A stretch of 33,323 nucleotides of DNA from Magnetococcales bacterium (GTDB taxonomy: Bacteria > Pseudomonadota > Magnetococcia > Magnetococcales > DC0425bin3), in the NCBI GenBank assembly GCA_015228935.1, contig JADGCO010000048.1:1-33323 (forward strand), in the 5' to 3' direction. The notes beneath the pieces are model-generated. The model was not told where the DNA came from. It saw nothing but the letters and a program-made list of their open reading frames with translations, and made no database searches. Each line of letters begins with the position of its first letter. Within the stretch, counting starts at the first letter, position 1. Below are positions 4,923 through 33,269 of the stretch, piece after piece. The translations under genes and the position numbers were made by a program.

Positions 4923-5981
4923 ATGGCAATGAATGTGCGCATGGAGTTTGGTAAACGACTTTCCCATGAGCTTAAAAGAAGAGGCTTCGACAAGGGAAGA
5001 ATGCCTCCTGATTTGTCTCTTGATGTGGCGATTCTTCAGGAATACCAGAACGGAAAGAGGAAAGTGAATCTTTCTGAAATTGGAAATATTTGTAAAAATC
5101 TTGGAATAAATCCAGTATATTTTATTTCTTCAAATTATTCATATCCGACTCTTTCTTTCAGAAATGCTAAAAAGGAACATGTTGAATTTGCTTTAAAAAT
5201 TGAAGATGCTGTCTTGACAATTCAAGATTGTTTTCCCGATTTTTGTGTGCCAGATATTGAAATACCGAAATTTATTGAAAAAGATTTTTTTGATATTATT
5301 GATCATGTGGTTTCTTTTCTCGACAGGTTCAAGTTTTCTAATGTTGAAAGTTTGTTGGGCATGATGAAAATCATGATTCTTCCCATTCGTCCACCGGCCG
5401 ATATTGATTATGATGCTTTTCTTGTGATCACGAAATCCAAAGGGGTCATCTGTTTGAATCCAAACAAGCCTCCTGTTCGGCAGCATTTTTCAATTCTTTA
5501 TGAGCTGGCACATTTTATTTTTGATAGGGAAAAAGGGTTTGGTATTGATGTGTTGCCAAACAATTTATACAATGATCGTATTGAATATAAATTTCAGCCT
5601 GAATTTATTGCAAATAAATTTGCTCAATATTTTTTGGTTCCAGCCCATTGGGCCATAAAGGCATCTTACGCTTGGCCAATGTTTCATGCTGAAGAAGCTC
5701 AGAAGATTCTCAATGAAAGAAAAACGTCTCCCCAGGTTATGGTGAATGCTCTATGTGATCAACTTCGTCGCCTTCGTTCTGGGGCTGATTCTTCTTTTCT
5801 GCTGTATAGAGAAATTGGAGAGAAATTGAATTCTTGCGTATTGACAAGTGGTGATGCTTCATTTATTAAAACTGTTATCTCTCAACATGCACAAGAAATC
5901 AAAAAATGCTTGTTGAAAAATCAGGGTAAATATTCCAGTGAAATTTTTGCACAGATCATGTACGTTCTCCAGTTGGAGTGA
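4923..5981 (+). CDS. XRE-type HTH plus ImmA/IrrE-like protein with altered HExxH (putative antitoxin/regulator)
   Basis: 352 aa, AT-rich codon use unlike the GC-rich genes on its left. Residues about 8-70 form a lambda-repressor-like HTH (FGKRLSHELKRRGF..., ILQEYQNGKRKVNLSEIGNICKNLGI). The middle to C-terminal part resembles the ImmA/IrrE (DUF955, COG2856) peptidase region: a PIRPPADIDYDAFLV strand, SILYELAHFIFD, then EFIANKFAQYFLVP. In active members the central motif is HExxH; here it reads Y193-E194-L-A-H197, so the first zinc-binding His is missing and protease activity is doubtful. GGGAG lies 9 nt before the start. The next gene starts 8 bp after its stop (or overlaps it if the GTG at 5978 is used). 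COG2856 proteins coupled to PIN genes are a known toxin-antitoxin arrangement, with this protein as the antitoxin and autoregulator. Confidence 0.75.
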   Translation: MAMNVRMEFGKRLSHELKRRGFDKGRMPPDLSLDVAILQEYQNGKRKVNLSEIGNICKNLGINPVYFISSNYSYPTLSFRNAKKEHVEFALKIEDAVLTIQDCFPDFCVPDIEIPKFIEKDFFDIIDHVVSFLDRFKFSNVESLLGMMKIMILPIRPPADIDYDAFLVITKSKGVICLNPNKPPVRQHFSILYELAHFIFDREKGFGIDVLPNNLYNDRIEYKFQPEFIANKFAQYFLVPAHWAIKASYAWPMFHAEEAQKILNERKTSPQVMVNALCDQLRRLRSGADSSFLLYREIGEKLNSCVLTSGDASFIKTVISQHAQEIKKCLLKNQGKYSSEIFAQIMYVLQLE

Positions 5982-27267: not shown

Positions 27268-27404
27268 CAGAACCCAGTTTGTTCTGATGTGAGGAACCGA
27301 GGAAAGGGGAACCTCGAATGGCAAGGGCATTGCGTCCATAAACGACGGGTTCGGGGCTTTTTTTGTAAGACATGCCGTAAATATTCAGGTGTGTTTCATT
27401 TTTG

Positions 27405-27433
27405 TTGACACATTCTGTTCAGTCCAGGATCAT
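27405..27433 (+). promoter_or_regulatory. Candidate promoter of the FRG-domain gene
   Basis: A perfect -35 hexamer TTGACA (27405-27410) stands 17 nt before GATCAT (27428-27433, 4 of 6 to TATAAT). Its position would place the transcript start near 27440, compatible with translation from 27450, 27480 or 27522 but not from the upstream TTG at 27402. Confidence 0.35.
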
Positions 27434-27521
27434 CCAGCCTTTGGTTTCCATGGTGAGTGTCGGTCAGGAGAAAATTGATGTGCATCTGCGCAGCCTTGGG
27501 CAGAAACCTGGAGTTTCTCAG

Positions 27522-28547
27522 ATGACAGAACATTGTCTTAAACCTTTTGGCAAAATTTGTTCTGTTAAAGATGCTATGGACATTATTTTTAATGATTCGA
27601 GTAGCGTTAAACAGCAGATATCCGACTCTGACTCTAACAGAACTGTGTGCAGCTCTTCTAGTAATGATCCTGATTGTTTCGGTAAGGAAAATCGGCATCA
27701 TGTTCCGCCTGAAATTTGGTTTAGAGGCCAAACAAATAAGGATTGGGGTCTTGTTCCTGCAGTGTTCAGGAATGTTGGTTTGAAAAGGTATAACGAACAA
27801 AGATTATTTTATCAGTTTCAGAATGAGAATCCGTCGTATGCCGAAAATCACGTCTCAGCATTTGATTGGCTGTGCTTAATGCAACACTATAATTTGCCTA
27901 CACGACTTCTTGATTGGACTGAGAACATATTGATAGCGTTATTTTTCTCTGTGTATGACCCTTTTTACGGAAACTTTGATCGCAACGATGAACACGATGG
28001 CAGTATTTTTAGGATTAGGGCTAGCGAATTAAACTCTAAAACCCGCGCCAATCAGATAAAAAAAGCGGGGATTTGTGGCTCAAATAGTGTCGATGTGATA
28101 ATAAGAAGCCACATGGCTTTCAGTAGAAATATTAGAGATTTATATTTTCAGATGAAAAAGAGCGGCGTCTTTCTTAATGTTTGTGACGTCTTAGGTTTCG
28201 ATGGTCAAAGTAATGTGGACGGATTTGGGTCACGCATTTCAGATCAATTTGAAAAACCTGTTGCAGTGTTTCCAAGAAGAATAAATTTAAGGATGACTCC
28301 CCAGGCGAGTGTGTTTACAATCTTTGGAGGTGTCAAGAATACTGTCAAAGATGAAAATCTGATTGATAGAAAATTTAATGATCTATATTGTTCAGAATTT
28401 AACAATATACTTGAAAAATACATTATTCCTAGTAAGAGCAAAAGGGATATACGAGATCAACTGAGAAAAATTGGCGTCCATATTGGCACAGTTTTTCCAG
28501 AACTCGAACATAGGGCAAGAGCTATTTCGCAGGATTGCTTGGTTTGA
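27522..28547 (+). CDS. FRG-domain protein
   Basis: 341 aa from ATG 27522, chosen because CCTGGAG lies 8 nt upstream; in-frame starts at 27450 (ATG) and 27480 (GTG) remain possible. The FRG domain is clear: WFRGQTNKDWGLVPAVFR at residue 66, the name-giving Phe-Arg-Gly motif, then MQHYNLPTRLLDWTENILIALFFS (120-143). The C-terminal part ends in a helical region with KRDIRDQLRKIGVH, which is also typical. The biochemical role of FRG proteins is not settled; they occur in variable accessory loci, including some with defence or toxin roles. Codon use is AT-rich compared with most of the window, suggesting acquisition. No partner gene is obvious: the next gene, 150 bp away, belongs to a different type of cluster. 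Confidence 0.85.
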   Translation: MTEHCLKPFGKICSVKDAMDIIFNDSSSVKQQISDSDSNRTVCSSSSNDPDCFGKENRHHVPPEIWFRGQTNKDWGLVPAVFRNVGLKRYNEQRLFYQFQNENPSYAENHVSAFDWLCLMQHYNLPTRLLDWTENILIALFFSVYDPFYGNFDRNDEHDGSIFRIRASELNSKTRANQIKKAGICGSNSVDVIIRSHMAFSRNIRDLYFQMKKSGVFLNVCDVLGFDGQSNVDGFGSRISDQFEKPVAVFPRRINLRMTPQASVFTIFGGVKNTVKDENLIDRKFNDLYCSEFNNILEKYIIPSKSKRDIRDQLRKIGVHIGTVFPELEHRARAISQDCLV

Positions 28548-28697: not shown

Positions 28698-29468
28698 ATG
28701 GAATCACCACTGTTGAAAGAGCCTCAGCATCAATCACGTGAAAACAGCGAATTTGTTTCCGCAATATCGGAGTATTGGTTCCATAGCCCGGGTTCGGTAA
28801 TTGCAAAACTGCAGAATTTCCCAAAATTCGTCAGCCGTGAAGATATTACGAAATTTCTGGCACGAAGTGAAATTTATCTTAAGCAACTCTCCATTCAAGG
28901 ATCCATTGTTGACCTGGGCATCTACCGGGGTGGCAGCCTTATGACTTGGCATCATTTGAATTCCATTTATGAGCCGGTTAACTACACACGAGAGATCATC
29001 GGGTTTGACACTTTTCAGGGCATACCAGAACTCTCTACTGAAGATTTACAGTCCGACTCGGTTAGCGCTCATATAATGGAACGTGGATTTGCACCAGAAG
29101 ATGGAATGCGGGAGGATATCGAAAGGGCCATTGAGATTCATGACAAAACCCGCTGGCTTTCCCATATCAAAAAAACTCGGATCATTCCTGGTGATATCAC
29201 CAAGACACTGCCAGCATACATCGAAAAAAACCCTTATTTGATGGTCTCGTTGCTGAATATTGATGTGGACATCTTTAAACCGACGAAATCGGCACTGGAA
29301 CTCCTCTTACCGCGCATGCCGAAGGGAGCCGTCATCCTGTTCGATGAGATAGGCAATAAACTCTTTCCCGGGGAGACTGCAGCCCTTAACGAGGTCATTG
29401 GCATAGCAAATTTAAAAATTGAGCGGCTTGTCTACGCCCCGGCGATTTCCTACACCATTATCTCCTGA
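28698..29468 (+). CDS. TylF/MycF-like SAM-dependent O-methyltransferase
   Basis: 256 aa. The pattern is that of the macrocin-O-methyltransferase (TylF) family, which methylates sugar hydroxyls in antibiotics and surface glycans: SIVDLGIYRGGSL (SAM site, 69-81), GFDTFQGIPELS (102-113), IIPGDITKTLP, LLNIDVDIFKPT (metal-binding Asp pair) and VILFDEIG. Length is typical. The N-terminal ~45 residues are outside the core. It is first of four plus-strand genes ending with glf and a glycosyltransferase, so a sugar substrate (possibly a galactofuranose-containing glycan) is inferred from context. Confidence 0.8.
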   Translation: MESPLLKEPQHQSRENSEFVSAISEYWFHSPGSVIAKLQNFPKFVSREDITKFLARSEIYLKQLSIQGSIVDLGIYRGGSLMTWHHLNSIYEPVNYTREIIGFDTFQGIPELSTEDLQSDSVSAHIMERGFAPEDGMREDIERAIEIHDKTRWLSHIKKTRIIPGDITKTLPAYIEKNPYLMVSLLNIDVDIFKPTKSALELLLPRMPKGAVILFDEIGNKLFPGETAALNEVIGIANLKIERLVYAPAISYTIIS

Positions 29469-29498
29469 ACTGTTTATTATCTCCTCAAGCGACCATAC

Positions 29499-31103
29499 AT
29501 GATGACTCGATCTACATCCTCCATTCACGTCGGTTTGCTGGGATTGGAGGCAACGGGGGTAACCGACAGGAGTGTTGCCCTGGATATCGCACACGCGATT
29601 TGCCTCGAAGCAGGGTTCAACATTGCGTTCCATTTGGACCTCGCTTTCGATGATGGTGCAAAAGTGTGGAACGCAGTTTCGCGGACGGCAATGTTGGATG
29701 CCATTCTCATCTGTCTCAGACCTACGGCCGCTTTGTTGCTGGGTAATCTACAGGAAGCACTAAATTCCCGTTTGACCGCCGGTCTTTCTGATCCATTGGT
29801 GGCCTTTGGCGGTCCTACAGTTCTCTGTGCCTACCATGAGATCGCGCAGAATTTTTCCAAGGCGTTCGTCTGGTCAGGGACGGTGGAAGAGGGATTTCCT
29901 CATTTTCTAAAGGTGTTATACAAACGGTTCTCCCATGCAATGGTTACGGACGAATCCAGGAGGTCCATGAGAACCGTTACAAAACACTTTGCAATGCCGG
30001 TCCAACACTCCACTGAACGATGTGTACGATATGGTGGAAGCATCTGGATCGAAGCCAGTCGGGGATGTCACCAGAAGTGCAATTTTTGCATCATGTCAAA
30101 CGATCAAGCCTTATCAAAATGGATCCCCAGACCGTTGGAAGACCTGTTCGACGAAATCGCGACGATCAAAGATCAATTCGGCGTAGGGTATTTCAGTTTT
30201 TCCGATCTTTCAGCATTTGAAACCAGGGAATACACACAAGCGTTTCTCGACGAATACCGACGCAGAAACATGACATTCTCTTTTCGTTGCGATATGCGCT
30301 TGGCAACGGTAAGAAACCTGGGAAACAAGCTTCTTGAACTCCGGGATGCCGGGCTCAGTTCTGTATACGTCGGGATTGAAACTTTGGTTCCAGAATTTCA
30401 ACTTGTTTATGGAAAACAGTACCCCGGAAAAGAGGCCATTGACCATCTCCTCTCCATCGATATTTTGGTATCCGCCGGCATCATTATGCTGGATCCACTC
30501 TACTCACCTGAAGATTTTCGCTGCCAAGTCGAAGGCGTTCTCCGAGAGAATTTACTTCCTTTAATCGCTACCCCTTTCAAAACTACTAGAGTACAAAAAG
30601 GTACCAGGTATGAAATATTGGCAAGAAATCATGGGATACTTGGGGATTTGTTGCCAAATCTCTGTGATTATTCTTATCGGTGCCTGGATCAAAAAATGGA
30701 AATCGTCCGCCAGATCATGGAGTTTTTTCATCAAACGACCAAACATATCTATTATAATCCCTATATTGAAGGACAGATCCGCCAAGCCCGACTTAATGAT
30801 AACTTTGTGGCCCGTCTGCACGGCATTTCGGTGAGATACAAGGAAATCCAAATGAAGTTGCTCCATCATTTGGCCAGGATTGTTACCGAAAATTCCAGTA
30901 TGGACGGCATTCTGAAAAAATCACTGGATGCTGCCGACATGTTTGCCAAGGAACGTAAGGAGGTATTTGCTGTAACAGCCAAAAATTACGAGCAGTTATT
31001 GGTAGATGGGATTCCCTATTATCGACTGGATCTTGAGCGATTCATTTCCCTTTATCAGGAGGTTCCCATGTTTGATGCGGACCGGGTCAGGGTTGCCCAG
31101 TGA
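29499..31103 (+). CDS. Radical SAM protein with degenerate cobalamin-binding-like N-terminal domain
   Basis: 534 aa. The radical SAM cluster motif is CHQKCNFC (C190, C194, C197) within SIWIEASRG, followed by a TIM-barrel pattern: SFSDLSAF, FSFRCDMRLA, GLSSVYVGIETL and SAGIIMLDPLY. The first ~150 residues look like the Rossmann domain that binds cobalamin in class B radical SAM enzymes (VGLLGL, LDAILICLRP, AFGGPTVLCAYHEI, VWSGTVEEGFPHFLKVL), but the DxHxxG cobalamin ligand motif is absent. The usual GEGE turn is replaced by SGTVEEG. The C-terminal ~170 residues are helical and unassigned. The stop overlaps the glf start (TGATG), so the two are translationally coupled. The substrate is unknown; a sugar or lipid carrier is a guess. 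Confidence 0.75.
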   Translation: MMTRSTSSIHVGLLGLEATGVTDRSVALDIAHAICLEAGFNIAFHLDLAFDDGAKVWNAVSRTAMLDAILICLRPTAALLLGNLQEALNSRLTAGLSDPLVAFGGPTVLCAYHEIAQNFSKAFVWSGTVEEGFPHFLKVLYKRFSHAMVTDESRRSMRTVTKHFAMPVQHSTERCVRYGGSIWIEASRGCHQKCNFCIMSNDQALSKWIPRPLEDLFDEIATIKDQFGVGYFSFSDLSAFETREYTQAFLDEYRRRNMTFSFRCDMRLATVRNLGNKLLELRDAGLSSVYVGIETLVPEFQLVYGKQYPGKEAIDHLLSIDILVSAGIIMLDPLYSPEDFRCQVEGVLRENLLPLIATPFKTTRVQKGTRYEILARNHGILGDLLPNLCDYSYRCLDQKMEIVRQIMEFFHQTTKHIYYNPYIEGQIRQARLNDNFVARLHGISVRYKEIQMKLLHHLARIVTENSSMDGILKKSLDAADMFAKERKEVFAVTAKNYEQLLVDGIPYYRLDLERFISLYQEVPMFDADRVRVAQ

Positions 31104-32320
31104 TGTTTGAAAACACCCAATGTGTCATCGTAGGTGCAGGTTTCTTTGGTGCGGTCATGGCCGAACGTATTGCCAATGATGCAGAAGAACGGGTTGTTAT
31201 TCTGGAACGCCGCCATCACGTCGGAGGTAACTCTGCATCCGTAATAGACCCAGAGACCAGGATTGAAATCCACTGCCATGGAAGCCACATTTTTCATACC
31301 AGTAATGAATCTGTTTGGCACTATATCACTCAGTTCACTGGATTTAATAATTACCGCCACAAGGTTCTGGCAACACACGCTGGCAAAGTGTACCCGATAC
31401 CAATAAACCTTTCTACAATCAATCGGTTCTACGGTCGTAACTTTACTTCGGAAGAGGCGAGAATGTTCCTTGATGGTGAAATCGACCGGGCATTAAGGTC
31501 TGGAGGGTGTTCGGGTTTTGAAATGGCTTTCCTATCCAAAACCGGTCGGCCATTGTACGAAGCTTTCATCAAAGGCTATACTACCAAGCAATGGGGTGAA
31601 GGTATTGATAAGTTACCAATCGCCATTGCCCAGAGAATTCCGGTGCGATGTAACCATGATGGCAGCTATTTCGATGATAGGTGGCAGGGAATTCCCGTAA
31701 ATGGATATGCCGCTTTGTTTGACCGTTTGCTTCAAAGCGAACGGATTGATTTATATCTCGGTGTCGATTTTTTTAACGTTCAAAGATACATCCCAAAAAA
31801 ATGTCTCATTATCTACAGCGGGGCCTTGGATCGGTTTTTTGGATACAAATATGGCCGCCTGGGCTGGCGATCTCTGAAGTTTTCTTTTGAAACTGTTGCG
31901 AACAATAATGTACAGGATACGGCGGTGATGAACTATCCCGATATTGACGTACCCTACACGCGCATTCACGAGTTTCGTCACTTGCATGCCGAGCGGAGTT
32001 ACGCTTCCAGGTGTTCCATCATCTGTCGTGAATATCCGATGGAGTACGGAACTGAGGACGAACCCTATTATCCAATACGATCCAAGGAAGATATTGAAAA
32101 ACTCTCCAAATATGCAGCAGAACCGGCTGAAAATCATATTTTTGGTGGCAGGCTTGGAAGTTATGCCTATTTGAATATGGACCAGGTCATTGAGCAAGCG
32201 TTGTCGCTCTACGAAAGGAAAGTCAAACCCCGGTTACTGTCACGTAGGAAACCGAGATTGCATGGAATTTTTATAAAGAGAGGGATGGACCCGGGTAGTC
32301 ACAAACTGGTGGCGGAATAG
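31103..32320 (+). CDS. glf: UDP-galactopyranose mutase
   Basis: 405 aa, converts UDP-galactopyranose to UDP-galactofuranose with reduced FAD. Family marks: IVGAGFFGAVMAERIA and ERRHHVGGNS (FAD-binding), HCHGSHIFHTSNESVWHYI, GYTTKQWG, WQGIPVNGY, YSGALDRFFGYKYGRLGWRSLKF, EYPMEYGTEDEPYYPI and IFGGRLGSYAYLNMDQVI near the end. The length is slightly above the usual ~370-400, with a basic C-terminal extension. I used ATG 31103, which overlaps the stop of the radical SAM gene by one base; the GTG at 31100 is the alternative. Galactofuranose is used in O-antigens and other surface glycans, which sets the likely theme of this cluster. Confidence 0.92.
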   Translation: MFENTQCVIVGAGFFGAVMAERIANDAEERVVILERRHHVGGNSASVIDPETRIEIHCHGSHIFHTSNESVWHYITQFTGFNNYRHKVLATHAGKVYPIPINLSTINRFYGRNFTSEEARMFLDGEIDRALRSGGCSGFEMAFLSKTGRPLYEAFIKGYTTKQWGEGIDKLPIAIAQRIPVRCNHDGSYFDDRWQGIPVNGYAALFDRLLQSERIDLYLGVDFFNVQRYIPKKCLIIYSGALDRFFGYKYGRLGWRSLKFSFETVANNNVQDTAVMNYPDIDVPYTRIHEFRHLHAERSYASRCSIICREYPMEYGTEDEPYYPIRSKEDIEKLSKYAAEPAENHIFGGRLGSYAYLNMDQVIEQALSLYERKVKPRLLSRRKPRLHGIFIKRGMDPGSHKLVAE

Positions 32321-32461
32321 GATGGACAATGATCCCAGGCAGTTGCTTTTTTAAACGGGAAGAAATCATTGGCGGGCCAGAAATTTCTTTCGGTTCTTGG
32401 CTTCTATTGTTCTCAAGCGGGTTTTTTCTCCTGACATGTAGATGGTCGAGATGCTAACGCT

Positions 32462-33187
32462 ATGACGCAAAAACGCATTCTGTTGGTCTTCGGAAAATAT
32501 CCCAGGGTTGGCCATGTCAAAACGAGACTGGCACCTGCCATCGGTTTCCCTGCCGCACAGCAGTTATACAAGGCTTTTCTGTCAGACGCGGCTTGCCGCT
32601 TCATTCCACCCCGGGAAGGCCATTGTTATGACGTAAAATGGGTCTATTCACCAAAAGACAGCGACTTTCCTCAAATGATCAGGTCTATGCATAGTCTTTG
32701 TGGTTTTGAAGAAAAAAAGATCGACGCATCTTTGGATTCCATCTTATTCTCCGGTCACGACATAGATGATATCGGCGAAATGCAGATCAATCAGCTTAAA
32801 TGGGCTCGGAATTCCGGTTACGAATCTGTTATTATCATTGGTACCGATTCGCCTCATCATAGCAAGGATACCATCAGCAAGGCATTCGAACGGTTGGAAG
32901 ACAACGACGTTGTCATCGGACCATCAACGGATGGTGGATATTATTTGTTAGGCCTGAGAAACATTTGGGACATCATCGACGGCATCGACATGTCTTCCAG
33001 ACATGTCATCAATAATCTGGTGGCTCGGGCAAACGCCGCAAACAGGAGGGTTGGTTATGTTGAAACAATCACTGACATTGATGATTGGGACGATCTGCAA
33101 GTACTGATCAAAAAAATCTCTCCGAGTCATGGTGAACCATGCCGCAATACATGGAAAACGCTTAAAAAACTTGGCTTGGCGGAATGA
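32462..33187 (+). CDS. TIGR04282-type (DUF2064) glycosyltransferase
   Basis: 241 aa. It shows the nucleotide-sugar-transferase-like opening LLVFGKYPRVGHVKTRLAPAIG, VIIIGTDSPH with the DxD-like metal site, VVIGPSTDGGYYLLGL and the C-terminal VGYVETITDIDDWDDLQ. This family is annotated as a glycosyltransferase with a GT-A-like fold; the donor and acceptor are unknown. It follows glf after 141 bp on the same strand, so a role in the same glycan pathway is plausible but not shown. The ribosome site is weak. Confidence 0.85.
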   Translation: MTQKRILLVFGKYPRVGHVKTRLAPAIGFPAAQQLYKAFLSDAACRFIPPREGHCYDVKWVYSPKDSDFPQMIRSMHSLCGFEEKKIDASLDSILFSGHDIDDIGEMQINQLKWARNSGYESVIIIGTDSPHHSKDTISKAFERLEDNDVVIGPSTDGGYYLLGLRNIWDIIDGIDMSSRHVINNLVARANAANRRVGYVETITDIDDWDDLQVLIKKISPSHGEPCRNTWKTLKKLGLAE

Positions 33188-33269
33188 AAAAGGGTAGTGC
33201 CTTCGTTTGGTTGATTTCGCTCAAACAGCCATACCAAACTCAAACCGGTTGATAAAAAGGCCGATTACA

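Follow-up and report, generated by a model that had tools for sequence, protein, structure and literature searches.

Do four neighbouring genes at the end of a Magnetococcales contig work together on a modified galactofuranose glycan, or do they only happen to lie side by side? The window, which is the whole stretch of 33,323 nucleotides that was analyzed, carries four intact open reading frames on the plus strand, which encode a TylF-type methyltransferase, a radical SAM protein, a UDP-galactopyranose mutase (Glf), and a DUF2064 protein (ORF list of the window; Table 1). An initial annotation had described them as a four-gene locus, and both the reading frames and their family assignments hold in Pfam and NCBIfam searches.

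Table 1. Features of the locus and of the rest of the window.
Feature	Position	Strand	Basis and remarks
IrrE/M78 peptidase-like protein	4923-5981	+	35-38% GC stretch; weak PADLOC RmrA/capP matches
FRG-domain protein (PF08867)	27402-28547	+	PADLOC candidate defence family PDC-S15, 1.7e-42; directly upstream of locus
TylF/CalS11-type sugar O-methyltransferase, 256 aa	28698..29468	+	PF05711; CalS11 4gf5
Radical SAM protein, 534 aa	29499..31103	+	PF04055; CHQKCNFC cluster motif
TGATG, radical SAM stop/glf start overlap	31101..31105	+	Sequence; translational-coupling type
Glf, UDP-galactopyranose mutase, ~405 aa	31103..32320	+	TIGR00031; UGM 1v0j/4rpg
DUF2064/CofC-like protein, 241 aa	32462..33187	+	PF09837, PF01983; TIGR04282 below cutoff; 3cgx
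IS1-family element end, cut by contig end	33193..33323	-	96% identity to C53:12665-12795

The first three genes are tightly packed. The methyltransferase and radical SAM genes are separated by 30 bp, and the TGA of the radical SAM gene (31101-31103) has its A in common with the most likely start codon of glf (ATG, 31103-31105; GTG at 31100 is the alternative), which gives a 1-bp overlap. Because of this TGATG stop-start arrangement, the translational coupling of the two genes claimed in the initial annotation is credible. The DUF2064 gene follows glf after a gap of 142 bp; for this reason, it may not be co-transcribed with the other three, and its membership in the set is weaker. Promoter-like matches in the window are at background (14 vs 12.1 expected), and terminator-like matches are above it (13 vs 5.6 expected) and lie mostly within genes. 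No transporter, polymerase, or classical glycosyltransferase was seen beside the four genes in the window, up to the contig end.

The assignment of Glf is supported by several matches. The protein scores 228.5 bits against PF03275, covering domain positions 1-203 of 203, and 311.7 against TIGR00031, above the curated cutoff of 303.75; the UGM structures 1v0j/4rpg are matched at 378 bits over residues 8-379. In the comparison with the Mycobacterium tuberculosis enzyme, the whole catalytic domain is aligned and the motifs HxFHTSN, KQW, RxPVR, YTRIHE, PYYPI, and GRLGxY are conserved. The arginines of the RxPVR and YTRIHE stretches, which we take to be active-site residues, are present in the window protein. 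One motif that differs reads YLNM in the window Glf and Y-x-D-M in the M. tuberculosis enzyme and three further compared Glfs. Within the order, Glf was found in 2 of 48 genomes, including the source genome.

The methyltransferase belongs to the TylF family (PF05711, 40 bits vs a cutoff of 23), and its best solved relative is CalS11 (4gf5; 139 bits, residues 10-252). The match extends over the full length, and the acidic DxD and FDE motifs of the metal site are common to both proteins in the alignment. CalS11 is described in PMC4760980 as a TDP-rhamnose 3'-O-methyltransferase that acts at the sugar-nucleotide stage. Unlike CalS11, the window gene has no calicheamicin-type genes near it. Relatives of the TylF type occur in 13 of the 48 genomes of the order, with the source genome counted. 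Several of these genes have nucleotide-sugar genes around them, to judge by names read from N-terminal sequences: a GHMP kinase accompanies transketolase halves and an epimerase in L047 and epimerases in L055, and the gene in L058 is near a sugar transferase and one transketolase half. In three genomes (G016, G023, and G014), one contig carries both the methyltransferase match and a radical SAM match, within approximately 1.4-5 kb of each other; these radical SAM proteins share at most 27-33% core identity with the window protein and are not its orthologs.

The fourth protein matches DUF2064 (PF09837, 74.5 bits vs a cutoff of 25.8) and also CofC (PF01983). The initial annotation had called it a DUF2064 glycosyltransferase. 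This name is no more than a family label, and the protein falls just short of the cutoff for TIGR04282, the arsenosugar biosynthesis glycosyltransferase family (126.6 vs 134). It shares the GTDSP and GPSTDGGYYLLG stretches with the DUF2064/TIGR04282/CofC superfamily, and 3cgx, a putative nucleotide-diphospho-sugar transferase, matches it at 79 bits. Its resemblance to both 3cgx and the CofC guanylyltransferases allows two options, transferase and nucleotidylyltransferase. Relatives at E 1e-5 are present in 6 of the 48 genomes of the order.

The radical SAM protein is the most unusual member of the set. Its core is standard, with a CxxxCxxC cluster motif (residues 190-197) inside the PF04055 domain (39.9 bits vs a cutoff of 29.5). 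A profile built from six B12-type radical SAM sequences matches residues 174-461 at 113 bits, and the core resembles that of BchE, HpnJ, OxsB, and other B12-type proteins down to the GIE motif. The N-terminal domain has about the right length for this class and carries a GGP motif; it differs in that no B12-binding Pfam domain is detectable (PF02310, no match even at E up to 5), whereas the relatives from a Sphingobium plasmid (L014) and from genome G210 (L040) do match this domain in the same search. The six-sequence profile gives 1.6 bits on the N-terminus, and the last ~70 residues lie outside the coverage of the relatives' profile. Because the alignment with the two relatives passes through the N-terminal domain and keeps the GGP motif, yet without a Pfam match, the most fitting description of this part is a B12-binding-like domain that has degenerated. 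Calling the enzyme atypical, as was done initially, is fair in the sense that the N-terminal part holds a weak alignable remnant and no Pfam B12-binding match. The score against TIGR04295 (B12_rSAM_oligo) was 30.8 vs a cutoff of 400. An AlphaFold model computed without an alignment had a mean pLDDT of 40 and was discarded.

Judged by its sequence, this protein is a divergent orphan. Over long stretches, its identity to any protein found is at most 26%; the closest one, encoded on a Sphingobium yanoikuyae plasmid, is 26% identical over window residues 39-408. No ortholog was detected at E 1e-14 in the 48 genomes of the order. Two partly overlapping draws of Pseudomonadota genomes (398 + 385, or 783 genome searches) also gave none, with G210 (22%) as the only relative. 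No relative was confirmed in genome-contig scans, of which the first used the single sequence and the second a two-row alignment; this method, which finds close relatives only and is less sensitive, was the one that covered the phyla other than Pseudomonadota. Scans of viral contigs and phages found none, and PADLOC matched neither the radical SAM protein nor the methyltransferase. A link to OxsB was considered and rejected as specific evidence, since OxsB is likewise the nearest solved structure for a further two radical SAM proteins of the B12 type.

The closest relative has a neighbourhood of its own. On the S. yanoikuyae plasmid (NZ_CP139981.1, L014:10961-14122), a SurE nucleotidase, the B12-type radical SAM protein, whose nearest solved structure is OxsB, and a NUDIX hydrolase are encoded in a row, with a GntR regulator in front. 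In G210, a NUDIX gene also adjoins the B12 radical SAM gene. These rows are possibly nucleotide-modifying sets.

The conservation of the radical SAM gene beside glf, which the initial annotation had suggested checking across genomes, came out negative in everything searched. A further 29 Glf loci of the phylum, searched with profiles over approximately 1.5 kb on each side, gave no radical SAM, TylF-type, or DUF2064 match, so the adjacency seen in the window is true of 0/29. As a positive control, the window locus scored for radical SAM and DUF2064 in this search, the methyltransferase lying beyond its flank. Five DUF2064 loci from the phylum were free of radical SAM and methyltransferase matches in the profile search, and the plasmid Glf genes of Desulfobaculum and Rhodococcus had no radical SAM gene among their annotated neighbours. 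The exact four-gene combination recurs in no genome searched, other phyla being reached by the less sensitive scans only. Literature searches, whether for glf together with radical SAM enzymes, for DUF2064, or for B12 radical SAM enzymes linked to glycans, yielded nothing relevant. The impression is of a further variable locus for surface sugars and not of a conserved new pathway.

Composition and mobile elements bear on the origin of the four genes. They have 45-47% GC and a GC3 of 46-50%, compared with 54-61% and 58-68% for the core genes of the window. The last 131 bp of the window are the end of an IS1-family element, and the contig stops within it, so nothing is readable beyond. The copy on C53 of the same genome (G000 C53:12665-13303 = L044:4666-5304) is 639 bp long and has GGTAGTGC/GCACTACC at its ends; it holds the InsA domains PF03811 and PF12759 (an InsA fragment) and lacks an intact second ORF. 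Low GC and the IS1-family end fit an island that was probably acquired. Since the GC of the upstream FRG gene is still lower (39%), this island may be a mosaic. A further IS1-family copy is present at C5:52761-52876. C53 also carries a sugar-type cluster (L044:11550-18001, names by reading); besides transketolase halves, a methyltransferase, and a UDP-GlcNAc 2-epimerase-like protein, it encodes two radical SAM proteins, one of which is B12-type and 610 aa long.

The explanation that we favour, with a probability of roughly 0.55, is a horizontally acquired, variable, strain-specific glycan-decoration module that makes UDP-galactofuranose together with a methylated or otherwise modified sugar. 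The family-level gene identities and the TGATG overlap are observed, and beyond them we infer a joint function in which Glf would make UDP-galactofuranose and the CalS11-like enzyme would O-methylate a nucleotide sugar or a sugar residue. The divergent radical SAM enzyme, probably translated together with Glf, would use radical chemistry to modify an intermediate, be it a sugar, a nucleotide, or a carrier, and the DUF2064 protein would transfer or activate the product. Family and structure matches, the overlap, the low GC, the scarcity of Glf in the order, the lack of an order-wide radical SAM ortholog, the 13 genomes with TylF-type methyltransferases, the nearby radical SAM genes in G016, G023, and G014, and the downstream IS1-family end were counted in its favour. 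Counted against it were the missing conserved neighbourhood, the non-orthology of those neighbouring radical SAM genes, the absence of a visible transporter, polymerase, or classical glycosyltransferase, the distance to the DUF2064 gene, and the GC of the FRG gene. As for the sugar-modification set originally proposed, the Glf motifs, the CalS11-like methyltransferase, and the overlap fit nucleotide-sugar modification; a conserved four-gene pathway is not borne out, and the methylated galactofuranose cap is a guess.

The four genes could instead be sugar-metabolism genes that were acquired separately and are chance neighbours on a mosaic island between mobile elements, with only the radical SAM gene and glf on one transcript and no joint pathway. 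Neither the set nor any radical SAM-glf pair is conserved, an IS1-family end begins at 33193, the FRG gene upstream has a different GC, and 142 bp precede the DUF2064 gene. However, sugar chemistry fits all four proteins, the genes lie on the same strand with the first three in close contact, and GC and GC3 are similar across them. We consider this unlikely, but it deserves to be taken seriously.

It is quite improbable that the locus is a secondary-metabolite cluster for a nucleoside or glycosylated small molecule, with a galactofuranosyl donor and a radical SAM enzyme acting on the aglycone or nucleotide. The methyltransferase is closest to an enzyme of calicheamicin synthesis, and a two-row radical SAM profile finds OxsB of oxetanocin synthesis, but this match stems from the Sphingobium row, is generic among B12-type proteins, and is not reached by the window protein alone. 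Assembly-line or aglycone genes were not seen. As a long shot, the radical SAM protein could be the first of a new subfamily, with a degenerate N-terminal domain that has lost cobalamin binding; it would act directly on the UDP-galactofuranose of the co-translated Glf, or on its pyranose form, to give a radical-modified furanose, for example a deoxy- or ring-altered sugar, that is then O-methylated. An arsenosugar-like pathway, suggested by the NCBI label of TIGR04282, by the near-cutoff score of the DUF2064 protein, and by a weak radical SAM match to ArsL (30.6 vs a cutoff of 450), is largely refuted within the contig up to its end, as that score stays under the cutoff, the radical SAM protein does not match ArsS (TIGR04167), and the methyltransferase is TylF-type and not ArsM-type.

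The glycan-modification reading is plausible, and the locus is most likely one of the order's strain-specific nucleotide-sugar loci with TylF-type methyltransferases, to which an unusual radical SAM gene is added. Should the radical SAM protein and Glf act on a common substrate, the locus would provide radical-SAM chemistry on a furanose nucleotide sugar, of which no described case was found in the literature searched. If they do not, this would be an ordinary mosaic surface-sugar locus. The interest that remains lies in the radical SAM protein as a divergent orphan.
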